20,254 nt of DNA from a virus, in IMG/VR virus record IMGVR_UViG_3300023087_000142, positions 1 to 20,254 of that record. One strand, 5' to 3'. Both the position numbers and the translations under genes were made by a program. The notes beneath the pieces were generated by a model. That model was not told where the DNA came from. It saw only the letters and a list, made by a program, of their open reading frames with translations, and did no database searches. Each line of letters opens with the position of its first letter. Positions within the stretch are counted from its first letter, which is position 1. Shown here piece by piece: positions 1,870 to 17,749 of this stretch.

Positions 1870-2018
1870 TCTTCATCCTCTTCCATGTCGAACTCTTTGA
1901 TTATATTTATACAATCTTCAAGAGCCTCTCCACAGATGGGACAAAACCTTACAACTTCTTCATTATGAGTTTCTACGGAAAATTCCGCTGCACATTCTGT
2001 ACATCCAATATGCTCCAT
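1854..2018 (-). CDS. Small zinc ribbon protein
   Basis: This 54-residue frame starts at an ATG preceded by a strong Shine-Dalgarno (GGGAG). It contains two CxxC knuckles, CTEC (6-9) and CPIC (26-29), separated by 16 residues, followed by a very acidic tail (DMEEDEEWLEE). The pattern is that of a one-zinc ribbon, which can bind nucleic acid or a protein partner. Its stop overlaps the start of the RuvC-like gene, so translation of the two is probably coupled. No specific function can be assigned; the acidic tail argues against simple DNA binding. Confidence 0.75.
   Translation of the reverse strand: MEHIGCTECAAEFSVETHNEEVVRFCPICGEALEDCINIIKEFDMEEDEEWLEE
1904..1911 (-). promoter_or_regulatory. 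Candidate T4-type late promoter for the RuvC-like gene
   Basis: The minus strand reads TATAAATA, the exact T4 late -10 consensus, inside the zinc ribbon gene and 35 nt before the GTG of the RuvC-like gene. T4 late promoters need no -35 box. In AT-rich DNA an 8-mer like this can occur by chance, so confidence is limited. Confidence 0.4.
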
Positions 2019-7537: not shown

Positions 7538-7855
7538 TTATATTACGTCTTTGATTTCAGCAACTAAATCCTTTTTAGTTTTTCTCTTGTCCAACTCAAT
7601 TCCATGTTCTCTACCCAACTCTTCCAATTCGTCCTTTGTCATACTTGAAAGATCTACACCTTCATCTTTCGGTGCTGATGTTGGTTTTGGTTTTGGTTTT
7701 GGTGCTGGTTTTGCAGGCGCAAGTGCATCAATTTTGTCTTTCAAATTTGAGTGCTTTTTATACATCTCTCCAGTTTTTTCGTTGACCCAACCGCGATTAG
7801 TTGCAACTGCATTCTTCATCCAGTTTTTTGGCCTTGCCCAACTTGGTAAATCCAT
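7538..7855 (-). CDS. Small phage protein with Pro/Lys linker and C-terminal HeH/SAP-like domain
   Basis: The 105-residue protein has three parts: an N-terminal globular piece beginning MDLPSWARPKNWMKNAVATN and including RGWVNEKTGEMY (1-40), a flexible Ala-Pro-Lys linker (about 46-63, PAKPAPKPKPKP), and a C-terminal helix-extended-loop-helix segment (about 67-105, LSSMTKDELEELGREHGIEL) of the LEM/SAP/Rho-N type that binds DNA or RNA in many phage and host proteins. The ATG at 7855 was chosen because AAGGAG lies 6-7 nt upstream; an upstream in-frame ATG (7936) would add 27 residues overlapping the preceding gene and has no ribosome site. Role unknown, perhaps nucleic acid contact within or near the virion. 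Confidence 0.75.
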   Translation of the reverse strand: MDLPSWARPKNWMKNAVATNRGWVNEKTGEMYKKHSNLKDKIDALAPAKPAPKPKPKPTSAPKDEGVDLSSMTKDELEELGREHGIELDKRKTKKDLVAEIKDVI

Positions 7856-7865
7856 TTTTTTCTCC

Positions 7866-9824
7866 TTATTTAACGTAGCTAGCAATCTTTTTAGCGCGAG
7901 AGGAATTTCCATATTTCTCCATCGCCATTTTTTCAACTTCTTTTTGAACCTGTTTTTTATTATATTTAGGGTTCATTGCAAGAACAATTTCTTTCATTTC
8001 CTCTGCATCTTTTTTATCAGAACTTTCAATCAATTCTTTAATTTTTAGTTCTTCTTTGAGTTTTGGATCAAATGATTCATCTTTTCCATCAATTATTTTA
8101 TTGACTTCGCTTGGAGACATGTTAAAATTCATCATTAGTTTGCTAACAGCAAGAGTAGAAACGAATGGCAAATCTAAATTAACAAGAGCAATCGTTTGTT
8201 CCTTGTCCAATTTGTCCAAAGCTTTGGAAAGTTTCATTCCTGACTGTGCAGAGATTTTCTTTCCTCTCAGGTCTTCAAATTCACTTTTTAATTTTTTGAT
8301 TTGGGCTGGAGAAAGTTTTTCTTGTAAATCAATCTCTGTTTCAAATTCTTTTAGTTCAATCTCTTCCATCTTATTAGCAGCTCTATTAAGACCTTTTGCT
8401 CTGTTTTGGCCCTTTTTAAGATCAGCAAAAGTTAACTTTCCTTTAGCATTTTTATCTCTTAATTTATTAAGTTGAGCACCTGCTTTACCATGATAATTAC
8501 GTAAAGTATCTTGAGAGACTTCATCGACCTCTTGATCTTCTTTCACAGGAAATCCAATATCTTGTTTTTTGCTTGTCTTTACAATCTTCAAAGTTTTCTT
8601 GTCTTTAATTTTCATTGGTGGAAGTTGAGAAGTGGAAATAATTGATTTTGCTCCCTTTTCATCAGAAGCCATACCTACGACTTTGTTACCATCAGCAGTA
8701 TCAACAACTACGAAGGGCTGTTTCATTTCTTTAATCTCATTAATTTTACTATCAAAAAATCTTACCCCAAACATTTTCTCAGCAGTTTTCTTACCAAGAA
8801 CATTCTTAACAATCATGAGGATTTTTTCTCTTGGTTCTGTGTCCAAATCATTCACAAATGAAATCAAAGCTTTCAATTGATTATCTTTCATCATTTTTGC
8901 TGCTTTCATGAAATCATCATAATCCATACCCTTTTTATCTTTTTTAGCATATGATTCGAGATCTCTTGCTACCATTTGAATTGATGCTTCATGTAAATGA
9001 AATTCTTCCATTTTTGGTTTTTCATGAGTATATCCCATCTTAGACATACGTTCATGATCTTCTGGTTTTTCGGCTTTATAACCTTTACCAGTTTTTGGGT
9101 CGTACATCATATGAGGTTCAAATTCCTTTTCCTCTTTATACATATTCAATTCATATTTCTTATTGTCCATATTGTATACTTGAATTTGAACTGCTTTTTT
9201 ACCATCTTTATCAAGTAAACGATAAGAATTGGTTTTACCAGATGTTGGTTTGCGAGGCCCAGTGGCAACTTTATCATCAATTTCTTTTGGATCAATATCA
9301 ATACCATATTTTTTCTTTGCAAATTCGTATGCATGTTTCATTGCAGATGAAAAATCTTTGTGATACAAATCATAACCAGTTGAAGATTTGCCCATTTTTT
9401 CTAGAAGTCTTTCTTCCATAGTAGGCTTTTTATATCCAAGTTTGACTAGTTTTTCTTTGAACTCTTTGCCGCGGCCATCAAAATTCTTCTCGTTTTCTAG
9501 GTCATCTTTTTTCTTCTCTGAATAGGAAAGCTTTTGCAATTTTTCTTTAAATGCTTTAGTTCTTCCATCTAAAGATTCATTTTTTGCACTTCCCATTTTT
9601 TGTGAACCCTTGGAAACCTTTTCATCGTCCTTGTTTTGCATAATACCAACAACGGCTTCTTTATTAACAGTCTTTGCAATTTTATCAGAAATTGTGACAG
9701 GATATTCTTTATCACCAAATTTAAATTTCTTTTTTCCTGCCGCCTTCGCAGCAGAAGCTGCGCCGATGAAATCTGCTACATCATCGTCTAAAATTTCTTC
9801 GGGAATATTTTTCCTATTAGTCAT
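7866..9824 (-). CDS. Large modular lysine-rich phage protein, probably virion or prohead-core associated
   Basis: The 652-residue, highly charged protein has no enzyme motif that I recognise. Modules seen are: a short Ala/Lys-rich N-terminus; a tandem motif DGRxKxFKEKLxKLxY at 86-101 and 116-131 (30-residue period); a region around 150-245 with YRLLDKDGKKAVQIQVYNMD; a segment from HLHEASIQMVARDLESYA (277 on) to about 360; a small VVVDTADGNKVVGMASDEKG stretch (372-391); VSQDTLRNYHGKAG...KGQNRAKGLNRAANK (436-485); and a helical C-terminus. The VS-x-x-TL...KRxKGxxRA pattern is, from memory, a recurrent module in structural polyproteins of marine T4-like phages. LHE-A at 277-280 matches the L-x-E|A cleavage rule of T4-type prohead protease. 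Shine-Dalgarno GGAGAA precedes the ATG. Confidence 0.78.
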   Translation of the reverse strand: MTNRKNIPEEILDDDVADFIGAASAAKAAGKKKFKFGDKEYPVTISDKIAKTVNKEAVVGIMQNKDDEKVSKGSQKMGSAKNESLDGRTKAFKEKLQKLSYSEKKKDDLENEKNFDGRGKEFKEKLVKLGYKKPTMEERLLEKMGKSSTGYDLYHKDFSSAMKHAYEFAKKKYGIDIDPKEIDDKVATGPRKPTSGKTNSYRLLDKDGKKAVQIQVYNMDNKKYELNMYKEEKEFEPHMMYDPKTGKGYKAEKPEDHERMSKMGYTHEKPKMEEFHLHEASIQMVARDLESYAKKDKKGMDYDDFMKAAKMMKDNQLKALISFVNDLDTEPREKILMIVKNVLGKKTAEKMFGVRFFDSKINEIKEMKQPFVVVDTADGNKVVGMASDEKGAKSIISTSQLPPMKIKDKKTLKIVKTSKKQDIGFPVKEDQEVDEVSQDTLRNYHGKAGAQLNKLRDKNAKGKLTFADLKKGQNRAKGLNRAANKMEEIELKEFETEIDLQEKLSPAQIKKLKSEFEDLRGKKISAQSGMKLSKALDKLDKEQTIALVNLDLPFVSTLAVSKLMMNFNMSPSEVNKIIDGKDESFDPKLKEELKIKELIESSDKKDAEEMKEIVLAMNPKYNKKQVQKEVEKMAMEKYGNSSRAKKIASYVK

Positions 9825-9846: not shown

Positions 9847-9854
9847 TATTTATC
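9847..9854 (-). promoter_or_regulatory. Weak late-promoter-like motif (GATAAATA)
   Basis: One mismatch from TATAAATA, in the 29-nt gap before the 652-residue protein gene and 23 nt from its ATG, partly overlapping the upstream stop codon. Placement is sensible for an internal late promoter but the match is weak. Confidence 0.3.
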
Positions 9855-12319
9855 TATCTTTCAGCCCAAAGGTCTGCATCCGACTTCCGTGCGCCACCGC
9901 CAGTGATAAATGAATTGACTCTAGCAAATGCCCACTGTTGTGGAGTAGTTCCTGGCCTATGTCCTGTTTTCCAAGCAGCCATACCTCTGTCATATACCTT
10001 TTTTAGAATACCATATGAAATACCCGACTTTTCTGCTTTCTTTTTAAGTCCCTCGATTTGTTCATCTAGTTCTTCTTTGATAGAATTTTTGGCAAATTTG
10101 ATCGCTTTTTCTGGGCCCTTGGCCGTATTACCTGTTTCTTTTGAATCCCAGAACATATTCCACACTTTACTACGTGCTGCATCATTTTTAGCTTGTTTCA
10201 TGTATTTGTTTAAAATATCAGCATCTGCCTTTGAAAGTTTGTAATCTAACTTATCATCATATCTTAGATTACCACCTACTTTGTAATTTGTGTCGCCCTT
10301 ATATTTCCATCTTTCTTCATCAAGTTCAACTTGTTCTTTAATAGAATTTCTATAAAGAGTCTCTAAATCTTTACCCGACACTCCACTGAAAGATTTAGCG
10401 ATAGTATATACATATGATTTTAAAGACTGTTTATCACCTTTTGATGCAATCAATTTTTTTAACGCATCAAGAGCAGCCATATTCATTCTTTCTTTATTGG
10501 TTGCAATTTTTTCATCAACAGTTTCATTTTTTTCTTTTGCTTTAAGATATGCGGCAACCGCCATTTGTCTTATTTTTTCATCGGACTTACCTTTGAATTG
10601 CGGAGCATCTGATTTTCTAAAATCATCGATGTAATCACCAGCATCAGCATCTTTGCCTAGTTTTTCATTTTTCTTACCATATTCCATAACTTTTTTACCC
10701 AATGGCGTCAAGTTACCTTTTTTGTCATACATTTTATCAATAAGTTTTTTTTCTGCTGATGTCAATTCTTTAAGATTTCCATCATCATCGTATTTTCCCG
10801 ATTTTTTCTTTGCAATAGCAATGGCAGCTTGTTGAGCTGGATTTGCTGCTTCTTTTTTATTATCCTTAGACATAGAACCCTGTTTTACAACACCAGAATT
10901 CTTAATTTTGCTGACAAGCTTCAAACGGCGCATGTTAGATATTTCGTTAAGTTTTTCTTCAATATTCATATCTACCTCTTCGTATTTTAATTCTTTACTT
11001 GATGTAGAGAAGTTTTTCTTACGCATGATTGTTTTATGTACAACTTCAAACTCATCATTCTTATAGTTGATAACTACAGGCAGATTTAAGTTAGTTGACA
11101 TGTCTTTGAGAACTGCTTCGATATCGGGGTTCGCCTTGATCTGAGAACCTTTTTTCTTCTGAATCTTTTTGAAAAACTTTTGAAGTTCTGCAACTTTGAT
11201 CTCTGGATCGTTTCTATTGTCATTCATTCTATCAACAAAATGTCTTGTAAATGTAATATCAATATCATATTTTGCAAGCATTCTATCTGCAAATTTTTCC
11301 AAATCGTCTATTTGTTTTTGAGATACATCCTCTCCATACATTTTATGATATAGGTTGGTGTATTTTGAGGGTTTTGTTTTTGCATTCGCATCGCCAGGTG
11401 CTGGTTTGTAAGAACTGTCTGAATCGTCTGATTTTTTTCCATATTTTGCGAAATGTCTTGCGCGAGCTTGTTTTGTTGACTTTGACATTTCATCGCCGTC
11501 TGCATCTTTTGCGTAGTATTTTTTAGGTTGTGTACCTTCTCTATCTTCGATATCTTTGTCCTGAGCAACCTTTCTTTCCGCAAAAAATTCTTCATATATC
11601 TCGTTGTACAGGTTGTTATCAGTTGCATCGTCTACATATCCCATATAATCTGTTTGCATAAACTCTAGCAAATCATCTCCAACGGAATTAAGAAATTCGA
11701 TCATTTCTTCGCTGAGGTTCATTGCTTTTCTTAGGTCTGCAAAGAGTTTCTTTCCATGCGTTCTTTCAAATTTACTTGGAAGTCCACTCTTGAATCCTTG
11801 AAGAATTTTTCCACCAATCTTTTCATCTTCGTATCTATTAGCAGCTGCAGCTGCTCTCATTTTAGATGCAGACATACCACTTACATCAGTAGCATTTTCA
11901 TCTCTTTCTCCGGCAGAAACAATTTCAACTCCATTTTCAAACTCATAGAAACCATGACTACCAGAAACACCATTGTACTTATTCAATATTGTTTCAAATT
12001 CTGAAACTCTATCGCCACCTACAACCATAATACATCTTTCATATCCCATCTTATATAGCATAGGAACGATATTAAAAGCAGATTTTGCATCTTTATTGGA
12101 CATGATATTCTTAGAATATTTTGGAAACATTTTCTTCATATAAGAAACTTTTGTTCTAAAATCTAGAGGGTCTTTTTTAGGATTTGTAGATTGACTTGGA
12201 AATACCATAAAATCCGCCTTTTCGCTTCTTGCGACGGCAGCAACTTTCTCTATTAGTTTTTCATGTCCAGTTGTTGGTGGATTAAATCTACCAAATGTAA
12301 AAACTACAGTATCTTTCAT
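9854..12319 (-). CDS. Multidomain protein with N-terminal NMN adenylyltransferase-like (nucleotidyltransferase) domain
   Basis: The first 200 residues of this 821-residue protein form a cytidylyltransferase/NMNAT-fold domain: FTFGRFNPPTTGH (7-19, the GxFxPxxxGH nucleotide loop), VVGGDRVSEF (99-108) and SGMSASKMR (147-155, counterpart of the ISxTxxR loop). Then come an acidic helical part (205-250), DREGTQPKKYYAKDADGDEM..KTKPSKYTNLYHKMYG (259-329), a domain with ITFTRHFVDRMNDNRND...LPVVINYKNDEFEVVHKTIM (355-432), Ala/Lys-rich segments, GDYIDDFRKSDAPQFKGKSD (561-580) and a conserved-looking C-terminus with GISYGILKKVYDRGMAAWKT (766-785) and TTPQQWAFARVNSFITGGG. From memory these modules recur in different orders in marine phage proteins. 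The domain could make NAD or activate another nucleotide. It overlaps the upstream gene by 4 nt. Confidence 0.82.
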   Translation of the reverse strand: MKDTVVFTFGRFNPPTTGHEKLIEKVAAVARSEKADFMVFPSQSTNPKKDPLDFRTKVSYMKKMFPKYSKNIMSNKDAKSAFNIVPMLYKMGYERCIMVVGGDRVSEFETILNKYNGVSGSHGFYEFENGVEIVSAGERDENATDVSGMSASKMRAAAAANRYEDEKIGGKILQGFKSGLPSKFERTHGKKLFADLRKAMNLSEEMIEFLNSVGDDLLEFMQTDYMGYVDDATDNNLYNEIYEEFFAERKVAQDKDIEDREGTQPKKYYAKDADGDEMSKSTKQARARHFAKYGKKSDDSDSSYKPAPGDANAKTKPSKYTNLYHKMYGEDVSQKQIDDLEKFADRMLAKYDIDITFTRHFVDRMNDNRNDPEIKVAELQKFFKKIQKKKGSQIKANPDIEAVLKDMSTNLNLPVVINYKNDEFEVVHKTIMRKKNFSTSSKELKYEEVDMNIEEKLNEISNMRRLKLVSKIKNSGVVKQGSMSKDNKKEAANPAQQAAIAIAKKKSGKYDDDGNLKELTSAEKKLIDKMYDKKGNLTPLGKKVMEYGKKNEKLGKDADAGDYIDDFRKSDAPQFKGKSDEKIRQMAVAAYLKAKEKNETVDEKIATNKERMNMAALDALKKLIASKGDKQSLKSYVYTIAKSFSGVSGKDLETLYRNSIKEQVELDEERWKYKGDTNYKVGGNLRYDDKLDYKLSKADADILNKYMKQAKNDAARSKVWNMFWDSKETGNTAKGPEKAIKFAKNSIKEELDEQIEGLKKKAEKSGISYGILKKVYDRGMAAWKTGHRPGTTPQQWAFARVNSFITGGGARKSDADLWAER

Positions 12320-13188: not shown

Positions 13189-13725
13189 TCACCAAAAATA
13201 GCTTCCGCCTCCACTCAATCCAAGTTGTTTTGCATATCTAGGCAATCTACATGCCCAGTAGCCAGGTTTTGTTTTGTCGTTTTTCTGATCGCAATTATGT
13301 CTTGCTGCAAAATTTCTAGCAGCTTCTTTGTTATTAATTTTTGCAGTCAATCCAGTTGTATCTCCAAACTCAACCTTTATAATATTTCCCTTTTCATTTT
13401 TCACATAAACATAGTATTTCTTGTTACCGCCTCTTTTGGGAGAATTTAATTCTACATCTTTTTCTTCCTCAACCAAAAAAGGACAATCGAGCGGGACATG
13501 TTCATTTTCAAACAATTCCCACTTTCCAATATCTGTTTCAAGAATTTCTATATCATATGAATCGAATTCTAGTTTTCCTTCTTCATACATTTTTCTTGCA
13601 ATATTAAAAGTTTCAAAAAATGCATTCGATCCTAAACGAAATACATTATCTAATAATGGAATTTCACTAATAACATGATATTCTACCATCTCTTCAATAT
13701 TTTGAAACTGTCTAAAACTTTTCAT
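13189..13725 (-). CDS. Hypothetical protein with capsid-targeting-like N-terminus and conserved C-terminal basic module
   Basis: The 178-residue protein opens with MKSFRQFQNIEE, a segment like the N-termini of two other proteins in this operon and like T4 internal proteins. An acidic linker (about 20-92) is followed by a C-terminal module: LNSPKRGGNKKYYVYVKNEK, KVEFGDTTGLTAKINNKEAA, and RHNCDQKNDKTKPGYWACRLPRYAKQLGL ending SYFW (about 93-178). From memory this module is a conserved phage family, with two cysteines and many lysines, likely to bind nucleic acid or metal. The ATG overlaps the preceding stop by 4 nt (ATGA). Function unknown. Confidence 0.75.
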   Translation of the reverse strand: MKSFRQFQNIEEMVEYHVISEIPLLDNVFRLGSNAFFETFNIARKMYEEGKLEFDSYDIEILETDIGKWELFENEHVPLDCPFLVEEEKDVELNSPKRGGNKKYYVYVKNEKGNIIKVEFGDTTGLTAKINNKEAARNFAARHNCDQKNDKTKPGYWACRLPRYAKQLGLSGGGSYFW

Positions 13726-14018
13726 TTCATCAAACCCTGTATTGTTTTCAACGCCTTCTTAGCGTCTGGATGTTTTGGATTAATACTTACTTCATCTCCA
13801 TTCATAAAATCTGATATGTTAGCAGATTTTCCTAACGCAGTTATTGCTTTATGTAATGGGTCTTTAGGGTCATATCTGGTTTCAAAACCAGGCTTGCCTC
13901 TTAATTCTACCCATTTGTTATCGCCCTTATTCCACATCTTTAAAACATCCATGTCTTTGCCACGGATTAACTTGAATTTAATTCCTTCGTCCAAAAATTG
14001 AGCAAAGCTTTGCATCAT
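13722..14018 (-). CDS. Small hypothetical protein with capsid-targeting-like N-terminus
   Basis: The 98-residue protein begins M-MQSFAQFLDEG, then a beta-rich IKFKLIRGKDMDVLKMWNKG, a WVELRGKPGFETRYDPKDPL stretch and a helical C-terminus. The second of two adjacent ATGs (14015) could equally be the start and would make the N-terminus MQSFAQFLDE|G, matching both the MKTYQEFIAE pattern of T4 internal proteins and the L-x-E|G protease rule. The first ATG overlaps the preceding stop by 4 nt. If cut, the mature protein would be about 87 residues. Function unknown. Confidence 0.72.
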   Translation of the reverse strand: MMQSFAQFLDEGIKFKLIRGKDMDVLKMWNKGDNKWVELRGKPGFETRYDPKDPLHKAITALGKSANISDFMNGDEVSINPKHPDAKKALKTIQGLMK

Positions 14019-15118
14019 TCAAAATCCAGATCATCCATTATACTATAATCATACACGGAATCGATGTAATCTTTGGCTTTTGTAATTTTAGATACAATCC
14101 AAGGTTCGATTTCAAATTTCTCTATCTGAGGTCTTCCCATCTCTTCTTCCATTGCATCTATAAGTTCATCTAATTTGTTTTGCATGATTATCATGTCGCG
14201 CATCATCATTTCGGCAGTCTCGCCCACAAAATCTCTTTCTTCAGAAATATTTTCATTTTGTCTCCGCAAAACAGCCCTAACTTGTGGGTGGTCAGATAAA
14301 CCTTTTTTGATTTTATCAATTGCTTTAACTGCGCCTGTCATATTACCATCTTTATAACGCTTATCAGATGCAACGCCTATAGCCATTTTGATTTCTTTGT
14401 CCGAAAACTTTTGTTCCTCTAAAGTTTCTTCTTTAATATTTCTTTTTGCCTTTTGTCCAGAAATCCATTTTTGAGCAGCTTTATTTTCAGGAGTTTTCTT
14501 TGCCCATGATGAAATTGCTCTATATGTTGCCATAACATCTCTTTCAAAATCTGCGCCATCAGAATTATCAACAATGAACATTTTTGATTTGAATGCTCTT
14601 TGGAACTTTCCAATGTTATCTTGAACTCCTTTCCACATCTTACCAACTTCGGCGGCACCAAGCGTCCTGCTTCTCGCGGCATCTCTAGCAACGGCCGTTT
14701 CTAAATTTGTGTTTACAAAAATCATTGCAGTTTCATAACCAAGTTTTTCTAACTGAGCTTTTTGTTTTGCAATCTTTTCATAATCTTTTCCCGTACCATC
14801 AATAACCAATCCCAATCTACCCTGTACATAGAGAGATTGTTGTTTGGATGTTACTTTTTTTGCTCGAACTCTGGCAGTCTGACCAGCATCAGACCAAATA
14901 TCGTCTGGTGTCATTTCAAGTCCAGCCTTTGCAAGTGCCTTTTCAAACGCTGGGTCTGAATTTACAACTCTCATTCCAAGAGAAGTAAGTGCAGTTTTTC
15001 CCACAATAAAAGATTTTCCTGAACCGGGCCCGCCGGCAAGAAATACTGCTTTAAAAATAGAAGGATCGTTAACACCTTCTTCCAATCTAAGTCTTTCTAT
15101 AATTCTTATTATGTCCAT
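14015..15118 (-). CDS. P-loop kinase (zeta toxin / polynucleotide kinase-like) fused to C-terminal phage modules
   Basis: The N-terminal two thirds (about 21-205) of this 367-residue protein is a P-loop kinase: VFLAGGPGSGKSFIVGK (Walker A 29-36), VVNSDPAFEK (S54-D55, the acidic position used for substrate activation in zeta and PNK-type kinases), LVIDGTGKDYEK (104-114), AMIFVNTNLETAVARDAAR (131-149, lid arginines) and a final FIVDNSDG strand. The rest has NMTGAVKAIDKIKKGLSDHP (259-278) with QVRAVLRRQNE, and a C-terminal EPWIVSKITKAKDYIDSVYD (338-357); both look like modules shared by phage virion proteins. The N-terminus MDIIRIIERLRLEEG ends with L-x-E|G. Substrate is not determinable: nucleic acid 5' ends, a nucleotide-sugar or a protein are possible. 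The start directly follows the ligase-like gene's stop. Confidence 0.85.
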   Translation of the reverse strand: MDIIRIIERLRLEEGVNDPSIFKAVFLAGGPGSGKSFIVGKTALTSLGMRVVNSDPAFEKALAKAGLEMTPDDIWSDAGQTARVRAKKVTSKQQSLYVQGRLGLVIDGTGKDYEKIAKQKAQLEKLGYETAMIFVNTNLETAVARDAARSRTLGAAEVGKMWKGVQDNIGKFQRAFKSKMFIVDNSDGADFERDVMATYRAISSWAKKTPENKAAQKWISGQKAKRNIKEETLEEQKFSDKEIKMAIGVASDKRYKDGNMTGAVKAIDKIKKGLSDHPQVRAVLRRQNENISEERDFVGETAEMMMRDMIIMQNKLDELIDAMEEEMGRPQIEKFEIEPWIVSKITKAKDYIDSVYDYSIMDDLDFE

Positions 15119-16375
15119 TTACTTGTCCCATGCCTTTGCTGCGGTAAAGTTGTTATAACTAAATTCCATTCTATCTACAAGTTTCACAGCATTAGTTCCA
15201 GTGTGGTCAATTGCAACATATCCCTCTGGATTTGTTACTTTATAACCATTATCAGTTCTAACAAAAATATCCGTCATTTGTTTAATACTATTTAGTTTAT
15301 TTACGATTAGAGTTTTAGCTGCAATCATTTCTTCCATAAAGTCAACTATCGCATATACAACCGAATCTAACTTGATTAGTTTTTTGACCAATTCATCTCT
15401 TAATTCTTCTTTTATTTGACGTGATTTTTCTGTTTTCAATTTGGAAATTATCTTATTATCAAAATAATTTTTGACATACATTGAATAATCAAAGTTTTTC
15501 AAATTTTTTGTCGAAATATTCTTTCCTTCTCTGATGTATGCATTCAAGAAAGTTTTGAAACTTGCACCAGACAATCCTTTCACCAATGTTTTATTCTGAA
15601 TTTCTAAAAATGAATTAAATTCATTTGCTTTGATTTTTTTGAATTTTCTACCGACAGATGAGAGTTGTCCATTAAGAGTTTTCAATTCAGATGCAGTAAA
15701 CTTAGCAGTCCCAGAAACATCTTTAAATGTTGCATCATCCATCCAAACTGAAGATGTTTTCTTGAGCCCAGAAATATTAACTCCAAATGAAGCTGTCATT
15801 CCTTGCAAATCTTTTCCTTTATATGTTGTATGCCAAACAACACCAACCTTAGATGCAGAAATTTCTTTTCCAATAGAAGAGTCTTTTTGAACAGCATATA
15901 CTAATGTATTTGGTTGAAATGTAATATAAGTTTTGCCATCCAAAGTTTTTTCTTCTCTTTCATCAGTATACATCAGGTCGCCCTGAATAACATCTTTGAT
16001 TCCCAACTTGGAAAACTCTGAAAATGCAACTTTAAATTTTGACTTTAGGTTTGGCGACAAGTCGGAAGTTGTTTCAATTTCATCTATGCTTTTATACAAC
16101 AATGGCACTGCATTAAATACAGACTTTTTTGCGACAAAAAACTTACCATCGGAAGGATCAGTACCAGCAAAAATTGCTGGAGCTCCGTCCCACTTTACGG
16201 TCATATTGATCTTAGAAGTAGCAGAACCAGATAACATATCTCTAAGGGCTCTTAAAAAGTTTACTGCGCCTCTTGCACCATTAATACCATTATTAATAAT
16301 TTCATCTTCAAGATGTTCTAGGTGTAAATTTTTACCTTCTTTTGATTCGTTTAAATGTGTTCTAAAACTTTTCAT
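15119..16375 (-). CDS. KxDG nucleotidyltransferase-like protein (RNA/DNA ligase-like) with capsid-targeting-like N-terminus
   Basis: The 418-residue protein starts MKSFRTHLNES and has an N-terminal HLEHLEDEIINNGINGAR helix. Its core resembles the covalent nucleotidyltransferase (ligase/capping) superfamily: MTVKWDGAPAIFAG (58-71, K61 as the candidate nucleotide-accepting lysine in KxDG), DGKFFVAKKS (76-85), DVIQGDLMYTD (128-138, position of motif III), TFQPNTLVYAVQ (152-163, like motif IIIa) and VGVVWHTTYKG (177-187). The motif IV/V lysine-rich blocks are not clear, and motif III has D instead of the common E, so activity is uncertain. From memory this is a conserved family in marine T4-like phages, without an assigned function. 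It overlaps its upstream neighbour by one base and abuts the P-loop kinase gene. Confidence 0.78.
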   Translation of the reverse strand: MKSFRTHLNESKEGKNLHLEHLEDEIINNGINGARGAVNFLRALRDMLSGSATSKINMTVKWDGAPAIFAGTDPSDGKFFVAKKSVFNAVPLLYKSIDEIETTSDLSPNLKSKFKVAFSEFSKLGIKDVIQGDLMYTDEREEKTLDGKTYITFQPNTLVYAVQKDSSIGKEISASKVGVVWHTTYKGKDLQGMTASFGVNISGLKKTSSVWMDDATFKDVSGTAKFTASELKTLNGQLSSVGRKFKKIKANEFNSFLEIQNKTLVKGLSGASFKTFLNAYIREGKNISTKNLKNFDYSMYVKNYFDNKIISKLKTEKSRQIKEELRDELVKKLIKLDSVVYAIVDFMEEMIAAKTLIVNKLNSIKQMTDIFVRTDNGYKVTNPEGYVAIDHTGTNAVKLVDRMEFSYNNFTAAKAWDK

Positions 16376-17703
16376 TAGTATAACTTTCCAAATGGGCCGA
16401 ACATTGGGCCTTTTTTCTGTGCCATAAAAAATAAATCCCTTATAAACTCTTTTCTTCTAGATAATGATAAATTTGCTATAATATATGCAAAACATACGAT
16501 TTGAGATATAACAACATTATCTTTACTTCTTCCTTTTGACCAAGATTCTTCAAGTTGGTCTACAAATTTATCTAAATTTCCATCAATTGTAAAAAGTGTT
16601 TTATTTCTTTTTATAACCGATATTTTATTTTCAAAATCTTTCCTATCAAACTTCATATAATGAGTGTGTTCTGGCATCAAGTATCCATCTTTTTTTAATT
16701 CAAGTTTCAACATATCTTTTGGAACTTTTCCTAAAAACGCAGCAGCTCCAGTTCCAACAAACTCATATGTGATGTTTCCAATTTGAGCCTGATTGCTTTT
16801 TACTCCCATACGATAAGTTTTGTTTTGGTATTTTACTTCTAATTGACTAGTAACCGAAGTAAAAGACTTTGTTTTTTCATTATATGGAATATTTAAAAGA
16901 AACTTTGAATAGTCTACAGAACTTTCTTTAGTAGAAGATTTTAAATTTATTAAATCATAATTTAATTTTTTTCCATCATTCTTTTTCAAAGAAATACCAA
17001 CAATGTCTGTATTATTATACGCAGAAACTAATATGGCATTACACTCTTGAATACTAACCGCTTCATTTAACATCGCTTCGTATTTTTTATAAGCAGACGA
17101 CCTTAAAAGCCATATATCAGCAGGATTCCACGAATCTTTCTTTGCAATATCAAACTTACTATTTACTAATTTTGATATATAATCCATAAATCCACCATCA
17201 CGATTATAAACATCAAATGTACTATTGGGTAGTTTGGTTTCTTTTTCGATTTGATTAAATTGCAATTCAAACGAATTATACCAAGACTTTTCATATGGAA
17301 GATTGGGATATATTTCTAAGAGTGTCGGAAGCAATTGGTCGAATTTCTTGTAATTTTTTGTTTTACTAGATAATAATTCTTCAAATATTTTAAGAGTAAT
17401 TAATTCTTGTTGTTGAGTAGTAGGAGCATTACTACTTGGATTAGATCCATTTCCAAATTTAAGAGATATTCCTATATATTTTTTCTTATATGAATTTATA
17501 TCGACCATATTCTTAAAATCATTAAGAATCTTTGCGTTTCCGAATCCTGCGCTACCTGTCTCTATTGTAATAAATTCATCAAAAGATTTTCCAAAGTTCG
17601 ATTTCATTTCTTCGAATAATGAAACCAAAACTTTTTCTTTACTCATTACCACCCCAAGATCTTTTATATCTTGGGATGATTTTGGTCTATAATTATAAGC
17701 CAT
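16375..17703 (-). CDS. Conserved phage protein with nuclease-like GISLK motifs
   Basis: The 442-residue protein is unnamed. Seen features: ITIETGSAGFGNAKILNDFK (46-65), a first YIGISLKFG (76-84), a helical middle (100-190) with YNRDGGFMDYISKLV (166-180), then DSWNPADIWLL (190-200) and a second IVGISLKK (234-241), and a C-terminal YLMPEHTHYMKFDRKDFE region. The PAD...GISLKK pair, an acid followed about 40 residues later by a strand ending in S-L-K, resembles the PD-(D/E)XK nuclease signature with Ser in place of Asp/Glu. Fold prediction would decide. It is the first gene after the late promoter at 17742. ATG 17703 lies downstream of a GGG-containing weak ribosome site. Confidence 0.75.
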   Translation of the reverse strand: MAYNYRPKSSQDIKDLGVVMSKEKVLVSLFEEMKSNFGKSFDEFITIETGSAGFGNAKILNDFKNMVDINSYKKKYIGISLKFGNGSNPSSNAPTTQQQELITLKIFEELLSSKTKNYKKFDQLLPTLLEIYPNLPYEKSWYNSFELQFNQIEKETKLPNSTFDVYNRDGGFMDYISKLVNSKFDIAKKDSWNPADIWLLRSSAYKKYEAMLNEAVSIQECNAILVSAYNNTDIVGISLKKNDGKKLNYDLINLKSSTKESSVDYSKFLLNIPYNEKTKSFTSVTSQLEVKYQNKTYRMGVKSNQAQIGNITYEFVGTGAAAFLGKVPKDMLKLELKKDGYLMPEHTHYMKFDRKDFENKISVIKRNKTLFTIDGNLDKFVDQLEESWSKGRSKDNVVISQIVCFAYIIANLSLSRRKEFIRDLFFMAQKKGPMFGPFGKLY

Positions 17704-17741: not shown

Positions 17742-17749
17742 TATTTATA
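17742..17749 (-). promoter_or_regulatory. T4-type late promoter ahead of the packaged-enzyme cassette
   Basis: The minus strand reads TATAAATA exactly, in the 49-nt gap before the 442-residue protein gene, with the ATG 39 nt downstream. T4 late promoters consist of this -10 element alone, recognised with the phage sigma factor gp55. Its place in one of the few intergenic gaps, at the start of an otherwise continuous gene series, supports function. Confidence 0.65.

Follow-up and report, generated by a model that had tools for sequence, protein, structure and literature searches.

We analysed a stretch of viral DNA of 20,254 nucleotides (nt; IMGVR_UViG_3300023087_000142, positions 1 to 20,254; hereafter the window), in which an earlier note had proposed that four consecutive proteins carry capsid-targeting peptides like those of the internal proteins (IPs) of phage T4. 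The four open reading frames (ORFs) are indeed present with the starts described there; they lie consecutively on the minus strand, adjoining or overlapping one another, at 13189-16375. The first encodes a DUF6267 protein of 418 amino acids (aa) with a KWDGAPA motif (15119-16375; PF19782, E 1.4e-98), with the start peptide MKSFRTHLNE↓S (16343-16375; the arrow marks the predicted cleavage site). The second is a P-loop kinase of 367 aa (14015-15118; Zeta_toxin/AAA_33) that starts MDIIRIIERLRLEEG; its N-terminus (15074-15118) has an LEE↓G site and lacks aromatic targeting residues. The third, a 98-aa protein that matched no known family or fold (13722-14018), starts MMQSFAQFLDEG. Its peptide, MQSFAQFLDE↓G (13983-14015), begins at the second Met, 14015, which would most likely be the true start: this Met is invariant in the family (alignment A1, 24 rows), is preceded by L, V, I, M or no residue, and places F at position 4. 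The fourth, a 178-aa protein with a phrog_7595 domain at its C-terminus (13189-13725), starts MKSFRQFQNIEE (13690-13725), with the targeting half (F4 and F7) and a non-standard processing site, I-E-E↓M. DUF6267 matches were found in 392 phage records, every one below 60% identity. The nearest named phage by this protein was Methylophilales phage Melnitz (57%), followed by Phage C48C1, Pelagibacter phage HTVC008M and cyanophages; Stenotrophomonas phage DLP_6 was also among the matches.

In T4 (NC_000866), IPII and IPIII start MKTYQEFIAEA and IPI starts MKTFKEFTSTTTPVSTITEA. Mutagenesis in T4 assigned targeting mainly to residues 4 and 7 and processing to residues 8 and 10, and cleavage by the prohead protease gp21 follows L/I-X-E (PMC9026906; here and below, statements on cited papers refer to the available parts of their text). 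We aligned the 98-aa family (24 loci) and the DUF6267 family (22 rows, comprising the window and further loci), both without selecting on the peptide. In the 98-aa family, position 4 was F, L or Y (18 F), position 7 F or Y, position 8 I or L, position 10 E and position 11 G in all 24 sequences, while positions 2, 3, 5 and 6 varied. The DUF6267 rows had F4 in 20 of 22 and L8 and E10 in 21 each, with S, D, G or E at position 11 and a variable or gapped position 7 (H in the window). Entropies were computed from 24 (98-aa) and 28 (DUF6267) distinct 11-mers, chosen with M1 and E10, so that both of these are fixed, and excluding shorter DUF6267 starts such as MISFAELTED. They amounted to 0.94 and 0.00 bits at position 4 and 0.97 and 0.49 bits at position 8 for the 98-aa and DUF6267 families, respectively, and to 1.66-2.90 bits at positions 2, 3, 5 and 6 in both; position 7 gave 0.99 bits in the 98-aa family versus 2.69 in DUF6267. 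Constraint thus falls on the columns identified by T4 genetics, with position 7 included in just one of the two families.

These starts resemble those of T4 IPI-III and Alt in having an aromatic residue at position 4, F, Y or H at position 7, L or I at position 8 and E10 (as in IPII and IPIII), and in placing different bodies behind a like peptide. L/I-x-E closes the peptide of DUF6267 (LNE↓S), the 98-aa protein (LDE↓G) and the kinase (LEE↓G), and the 178-aa protein has only I-E-E↓M. After the cut (P1'), the two strong families have G, S or D where the T4 IPs have A. Judged by their sequences, the DUF6267 and 98-aa proteins carry textbook T4-style capsid-targeting and prohead-cleavage peptides. 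For the other two proteins, the start claimed earlier held only by halves. The kinase has a border site of the LxE↓G type (scored as [LIVM]xE) in 27 of 27 distinct contexts, including those with the frame open upstream (L047, L104, L110 and L180), but it lacks the aromatic residues, and the full peptide was found in just 2 of the 27, as MLTFKTYLSEG (L102) and MKSFKNYLSEG (L108). Conversely, the 178-aa protein has the targeting half but not the canonical site, and, by our definition, neither peptide nor site was present in 15 of its 21 contexts. As tagged cargo, DUF6267 and the 98-aa protein make a strong case, the kinase and the 178-aa protein a moderate one.

The occurrence of the motif at protein starts exceeds chance. 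Among 282 loci, its strict form stood at 90 of 13,396 start-region Met or start codons versus 3 of 14,671 internal Mets. Chance at the latter frequency would account for some 3 of the 90 hits. As most of these loci were not random but chosen for holding these families, the 33-fold ratio expresses start-specificity within such regions. Moreover, as the earlier note had suggested looking for, the peptide is found on unrelated bodies: those behind the strict motif formed 22 unrelated clusters (blastp, E 1e-4), 2 of them T4 controls. They include the 98-aa family, DUF6267, cytidylyltransferase and kinase, as well as a RimK-like ATP-grasp protein (3.6e-31), a CCA-adding/poly(A)-polymerase type (2.8e-17), a cREC cyclic-phosphate domain (6.8e-20), a HAD-like protein whose match fell below Pfam's cut-off and one free-standing protein that we read from its sequence as DUF5824-like. 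In a relative whose DUF6267 is 75% identical to that of the window (L030:11429-15950), six consecutive genes form a cassette array with near-identical start peptides (in order, MKTFYQYIEEA, MKTFVQFITE, MKTFYQYIEEA, (V)KTFYQYLTE, MKTFYQYTSE and MKSFLSHLNES) and mostly unrelated bodies. Only the first and fourth bodies are alike (E 1e-38); an HD_4 domain (1.7e-17) is present in the fifth, and the sixth is of the CCA-adding type. The identical MKTFYQYIEEA pair differs at six codons, all synonymously. In another locus (L207), an additional tagged gene lies between the 98-aa and 178-aa genes. A position matrix made from 57 DUF6267 and 98-aa peptides separated S-CREM2 virion proteins weakly (Mann-Whitney p 0.013) and those of S-SZBM1 not clearly (0.096); among 69 T4 proteins, it ranked ipIII and ipII 5th and 6th and ipI 14th.

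The operon is preceded by a T4-type late promoter octamer, TATAAATA (17742-17749, minus strand), 38 nt before the ATG at 17703. This ATG opens a gene for a 442-aa protein (16375-17703, minus strand; phrog_1462), the first of the putative late operon, which has no start peptide in the window; a relative in L073 (35% over 103 aa, E 4.6e-11) begins MENFLSYISEA. A 203,815-base virus contig, IMGVR_UViG_3300020055_000003 (G001), carries the same operon with an identical DUF6267 protein, and is a contig of the same phage (hereafter the sister contig). There, 19 of 27 octamers stand 10-60 nt before a start, compared to a mean of 3.3 (36.6 sites) for 55 permuted octamers and a maximum of 13, reached by an overlapping variant; the ORFs downstream read, by sequence, as neck, sheath, tube, scaffold and capsid among others. 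In 51 of 82 distinct contexts, the octamer was found on the coding strand within 1,700 nt upstream of DUF6267, versus 1 of 82 on the other strand; permuted octamers gave a mean of 20.9 and a maximum of 44, in contexts that are AT-rich and include many near relatives. It mostly precedes the gene before DUF6267, and in L029, L033, L034 and L047 it is found also or only directly before DUF6267 itself. The consensus promoter thus predicts late expression of the operon. The window has one other exact match, at 1904-1911 (minus strand), 34 nt before a gene at 1309-1869 that we read as RuvC-like; this match suggests that the gene, too, is expressed late.

The window itself has no gp21-type protease gene. 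On the sister contig, a Peptidase_S77 match (10718-11194, E 1.4e-36) lies within a 212-aa ORF, and the same domain was found in 9 of the 12 records searched, the 3 without a match being contigs of 80-118 kb. In major capsid proteins, picked by position and reading, L-x-E↓A was present near residues 50-65 in five of seven phages (Melnitz, DLP_6, S-SZBM1, S-CREM2 and T4, the latter with FGSFLTE↓A). An 88-aa protein of the sister contig (L241:10437-10703), encoded directly before the prohead protease in a core-protein-like place, starts MLSFEEYLSQDLDEA.

We then compared the peptide with virion proteomes of relatives, taken from Table 3 for S-CREM2 (PMC10665884), from Table 1 for S-SZBM1 (30 proteins; the text of PMC9146016 names a few more) and from GenBank flags for S-SCSM1 (46 flagged, versus 45 detected by the paper). 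The comparison covered 218 of 219 proteins of S-CREM2 (the virion protein gp85 left out), 216 of 218 of S-SZBM1 (gp78 and the virion protein gp203 left out) and 276 of 282 of S-SCSM1 (gp166, 167, 207, 208, 209 and 228 left out, of which 207 and 228 are flagged virion). In S-CREM2, five virion proteins matched the start motif that we used for testing (pattern A), namely gp6 (SAM hydrolase), gp13, gp14 (APH-like kinase), gp136 and gp154 (cytidylyltransferase), and gp175 alone did so outside the virion list (p 0.003), in a phage whose N-termini had been seen before pattern A was fixed and which is thus not an independent test. Pattern A was applied unchanged to the other two phages, with S-SCSM1 gp91 already seen beforehand. 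In S-SZBM1, the cytidylyltransferase gp140 was detected and gp191 and gp192 were not (p 0.35); in S-SCSM1, the NMNAT gp91 was detected and gp30 was not (p 0.31). Pooled over the three phages, pattern A was present in 7 of 126 virion proteins versus 4 of 584 others (Fisher p 8e-4). With S-CREM2, the motif anywhere in the first 30 residues (pattern B) gave 6/51 versus 2/167 (p 0.0024), a loose pattern D 7/51 versus 10/167 (p 0.07), and the cleavage site by itself ([LI].E[AGS] within 20 residues of the start) 2/51 versus 4/167 (p 0.43).

All four cytidylyltransferases detected in virions whose start was read (S-CREM2, S-SZBM1, S-SCSM1 and S-SM1) have the peptide, for example MKNFSSFLTE in S-CREM2 gp154 and MKSFLQFLKE in S-SCSM1 gp91; a comparable start in Melnitz is MQGFKTFLSE. 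The protein of this family named T4-GC190 was reported in S-SM1 virions and was not detected for S-PM2 (PMC3037559); S-SM1 GC190 starts MKKFSAFLNEA, and the annotated S-PM2 protein opens with DUF6267 sequence, no start of this kind preceding its cytidylyltransferase part. The DUF6267 proteins of S-SZBM1 (gp141) and S-CREM2 (gp87) have no peptide and are outside the mass spectrometry lists. In these three cases, few as they are, absence of the peptide coincides with absence from the virion list. We read the coexistence of tagged and untagged homologues as gain and loss of a module by single genes. A cytidylyltransferase has reportedly been found in virions of S-CBWM1 as well.

Further observations concern the same proteins. 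The S-PM2 coding sequence L278:5026-6805, annotated cytitidyltransferase, has the C-terminal part of DUF6267 at its beginning, which would be either a frameshift or a fusion of the phrog_455 kind. By eye, an MTPG[QE]-type stretch recurs close to the C-terminal end of cytidylyltransferases (L282, L280, L006 and L002). The S-CREM2 virion protein gp12 (L005:7704-10313), annotated Cas9/Csn1, has the motif about 17 residues in (LRFASFMAEA), behind a leader without a second Met. The small S-SCSM1 protein gp93 (L284:43627-43836), flagged virion, has a tag-like C-terminal end, RTFKEFLEYIE. S-SZBM1 gp191 (L010; MKSFKSFLSES) and S-SCSM1 gp30 (L283; MKTFKQFMSES) are similar small proteins encoded near head genes; fully tagged, they are in neither virion list.

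Taken together, we consider it likely that the window belongs to a T4-like marine myovirus with a late-expressed cargo operon, whose tagged proteins are packaged, trimmed and carried into the host when infection begins. A T4-type capsid-targeting propeptide would be present, whole or in part, on DUF6267 and the 98-aa protein and, probably, on the kinase and the 178-aa protein. Residues 4 and 7 (F and F/Y/H) would make contact with the prohead core, and cleavage after L/I-x-E would be the work of the gp21-type protease; once trimmed, the proteins would remain beside the DNA inside the head and pass with it into the host. The phage would thus probably take these enzymes along in its head and release them into the cell together with its DNA; for its own proteins, packaging, trimming and injection are inferred. 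The packaged enzyme set proposed in the earlier note was supported in part, by the position-wise conservation of the start peptide and its presence on unrelated bodies, the late promoter, the protease of the sister contig and the tagged cytidylyltransferases detected in virions, while its extension to all four proteins was too broad. Peptides MKSFRTHLNESK and MQSFAQFLDEGI would be expected to be packaged and cut, and MDIIRIIERLRLEEGV poorly so.

Several results weigh against such a cargo operon. Homologues that keep the domain without the peptide, which the earlier note had named as evidence against packaging, do exist, among them the DUF6267 proteins of S-SZBM1, S-PM2, S-SM1 and S-CREM2; that of HTVC008M has only a shortened start, MYNDLLVED. 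Neither peptide nor site was present in 15 of 77 DUF6267 contexts (of the 14 peptide-less ones listed, 11 have MISFKQTITEQ-like variants) and in 33 of 60 cytidylyltransferase contexts, and the window's own cytidylyltransferase has the domain without the start peptide. The 178-aa protein is without a canonical cleavage site, and the EG of the kinase may be either a retained cleavage site or a part of the kinase fold. An exact octamer was absent within 1,700 nt in 31 of 82 contexts, including HTVC008M, DLP_6 and S-SZBM1. The capsid proteins of the sister contig (SLNE↓T) and HTVC008M (LGE↓I) have no L-x-E↓A/G/S at the place in question. Four whole genomes with simple ORF calling gave no clear excess at starts (6/2,019 versus 6/3,347 internal), in a scan whose overlap filter removed the 98-aa gene; across whole genomes, the tag is rare. 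As for the proteomes, S-SZBM1 and S-SCSM1 were not significant singly, the pooled signal came mainly from S-CREM2, with the dependence described above, and 4 of the 11 motif-bearing proteins were undetected. Moreover, the authors of the S-CREM2 study pointed out that detected enzymes could be contaminants, leaving cargo versus contamination open (PMC10665884).

Three other explanations were weighed against a delivered cargo. These proteins could be ordinary intracellular nucleic-acid enzymes of the replication-gene cluster, with starts that are amphipathic N-termini or remnants of duplication and play no role in packaging. This would suit an operon that comes after genes read as uvsX, helicase and 2OG-oxygenase (so annotated in Melnitz), and homologues that retain the domain without the peptide. 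However, unrelated bodies have the peptide in common, its conserved positions are the targeting and processing positions of T4, the L030 pair differs only synonymously, the late promoter is of the kind preceding the capsid gene and peptide-bearing orthologues were detected in virions, all of which makes such a role very improbable. Packaged and trimmed proteins could also help to build the head, as parts of its scaffold or core, rather than serve as delivered enzymes. T4 IPIII affects head assembly (PMC9026906), and the 88-aa protein with a similar start lies directly before the protease on the sister contig. A core role gives no reason why tagged bodies should be enzymes or enzyme-like (kinase, CCA-adding type, RimK-like, cREC and HD_4), and we regard it as unlikely.

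Alternatively, only the cleavage site might be real, with entry into the prohead through other contacts and the first residues serving as a spacer. The kinase, with its site in every context, even where the frame is open upstream, and its full peptide in two, behaves in this manner. In S-SCSM1, seven proteins of the syntenic block (gp89-93, 95 and 97) are flagged virion and pattern A is present only in gp91, so that several of the flagged proteins are without the strict start peptide. Yet F4 is kept in both the 98-aa and DUF6267 families and F/Y7 in the former, and the 178-aa protein has the targeting half without a canonical site, leaving this explanation rather unlikely.

The proposed cargo operon can be compared with known systems. 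As in T4, the phage has a gp21-type protease, on the sister contig. T4 IPs are proteins of 95-193 aa encoded in the neighbourhood of e, denV and tRNA genes; unlike them, the window cargo is larger and enzyme-like and is encoded in one operon after a helicase gene, with its own late promoter. The idea that the capsid-targeting sequence may be a general way of loading proteins into T4-like heads has been suggested previously (PMC9026906). An N-terminal signal likewise directs DarB of phage P1, a delivered protein, into the head, although by a different assembly system (PMC9024508). The virion NMNAT/cytidylyltransferase of cyanophages is a relative of the gene at 9854-12319 of the window and stands in a similar gene order (PMC10665884, PMC9602691, PMC9146016 and PMC3037559); it is tagged there and untagged in the window, and the available text of these papers does not tie its presence in virions to a targeting peptide. 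Polyvalent proteins and packaged NAD/ADP-ribose enzymes are also head-packaged enzymes for host conflict, and their packaging was deduced from MuF or portal fusions or gene neighbourhood, in contrast to the short cleavable start peptide seen here (PMC5512222 and PMC9503650). In the open-licence literature, which excludes subscription papers, we found no earlier link of DUF6267 or the cyanophage proteins to capsid targeting. If the cargo reading is correct, the first 11 residues together with a late promoter would predict the injected proteins of marine T4-like phages, and the tag would provide a sequence rule for spotting injected effectors in their genomes. 'Hypothetical' and 'auxiliary metabolic' genes would become candidate first-minute effectors, and an explanation would be offered for the recurrent NMNAT-like enzymes in cyanophage virions.

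We also considered what the cargo might do. KxDG is the nucleotidyl motif of the nucleic-acid ligase/nucleotidyltransferase superfamily, and K61-W62-D63-G64 is invariant in 22 of 22 aligned DUF6267 sequences. The best VIA match of a DUF6267 model (pLDDT 73.8) was T4 RNA ligase 2 (Z 6.4, rmsd 5.0 over 171 residues); other RNA and DNA ligases scored Z 5-6, but so did DnaK (5.9), and Z below 8 is common. Foldseek gave no match to this model at E <= 0.001, and the DUF6267 profile reached a best E of 0.014 against sequences of solved structures. DUF6267 is thus possibly a nucleic-acid-ligase-like nucleotidyltransferase, as far as the model indicates. The kinase matched Zeta_toxin (4.6e-9), AAA_33 (4e-8), phrog_12810 of unknown function (1.8e-47), a phrog_2071 ATPase (1.5e-12) and the polynucleotide kinase phrog_505 (1.2e-5), and found nothing among sequences of solved structures. 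A fold search with a model of the 98-aa protein gave no match at E <= 0.001, and PADLOC matched none of six proteins. HD_4 domains are of a kind found in alarmone hydrolases. As a tentative idea, the operon could be a virion-delivered first-aid kit for RNA repair and nucleotide-signal clean-up, acting from DNA entry and before phage gene expression. Its members, speculatively, would be the ligase-like DUF6267 and the polynucleotide-kinase-like enzyme and, in relatives, the CCA-adding type, cREC, HD_4 and NMNAT-like enzymes, all loaded, equally speculatively, by one swappable 11-residue tag.

Downstream of the four ORFs on the minus strand, the window encodes an 821-aa cytidylyltransferase/NMNAT-like protein with DUF5824 and no start peptide (9854-12319), the relative of the cyanophage protein detected in virions, and a 652-aa lysine- and glutamate-rich protein of the same cluster (7866-9824), which has no family match and is a possible further cargo by its position. 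Many-site polyprotein cleavage of these two proteins was considered but found no support, as their L-x-E density is not above that of other window proteins. psbA was not found in the two contigs of the phage, both of which may be incomplete, and a cyanobacterial host is therefore not suggested. A 132-aa protein (7538-7936) has a sub-threshold C-terminal match to Rho_N (E 3.9e-4). Finally, by eye, a module EIKMAIGxASDKRY...AVLxRQNE stands both at the C-terminus of the window kinase and in a Melnitz protein that differs from it elsewhere (L002:14234-14989), which we read as probable domain shuffling within the operon.

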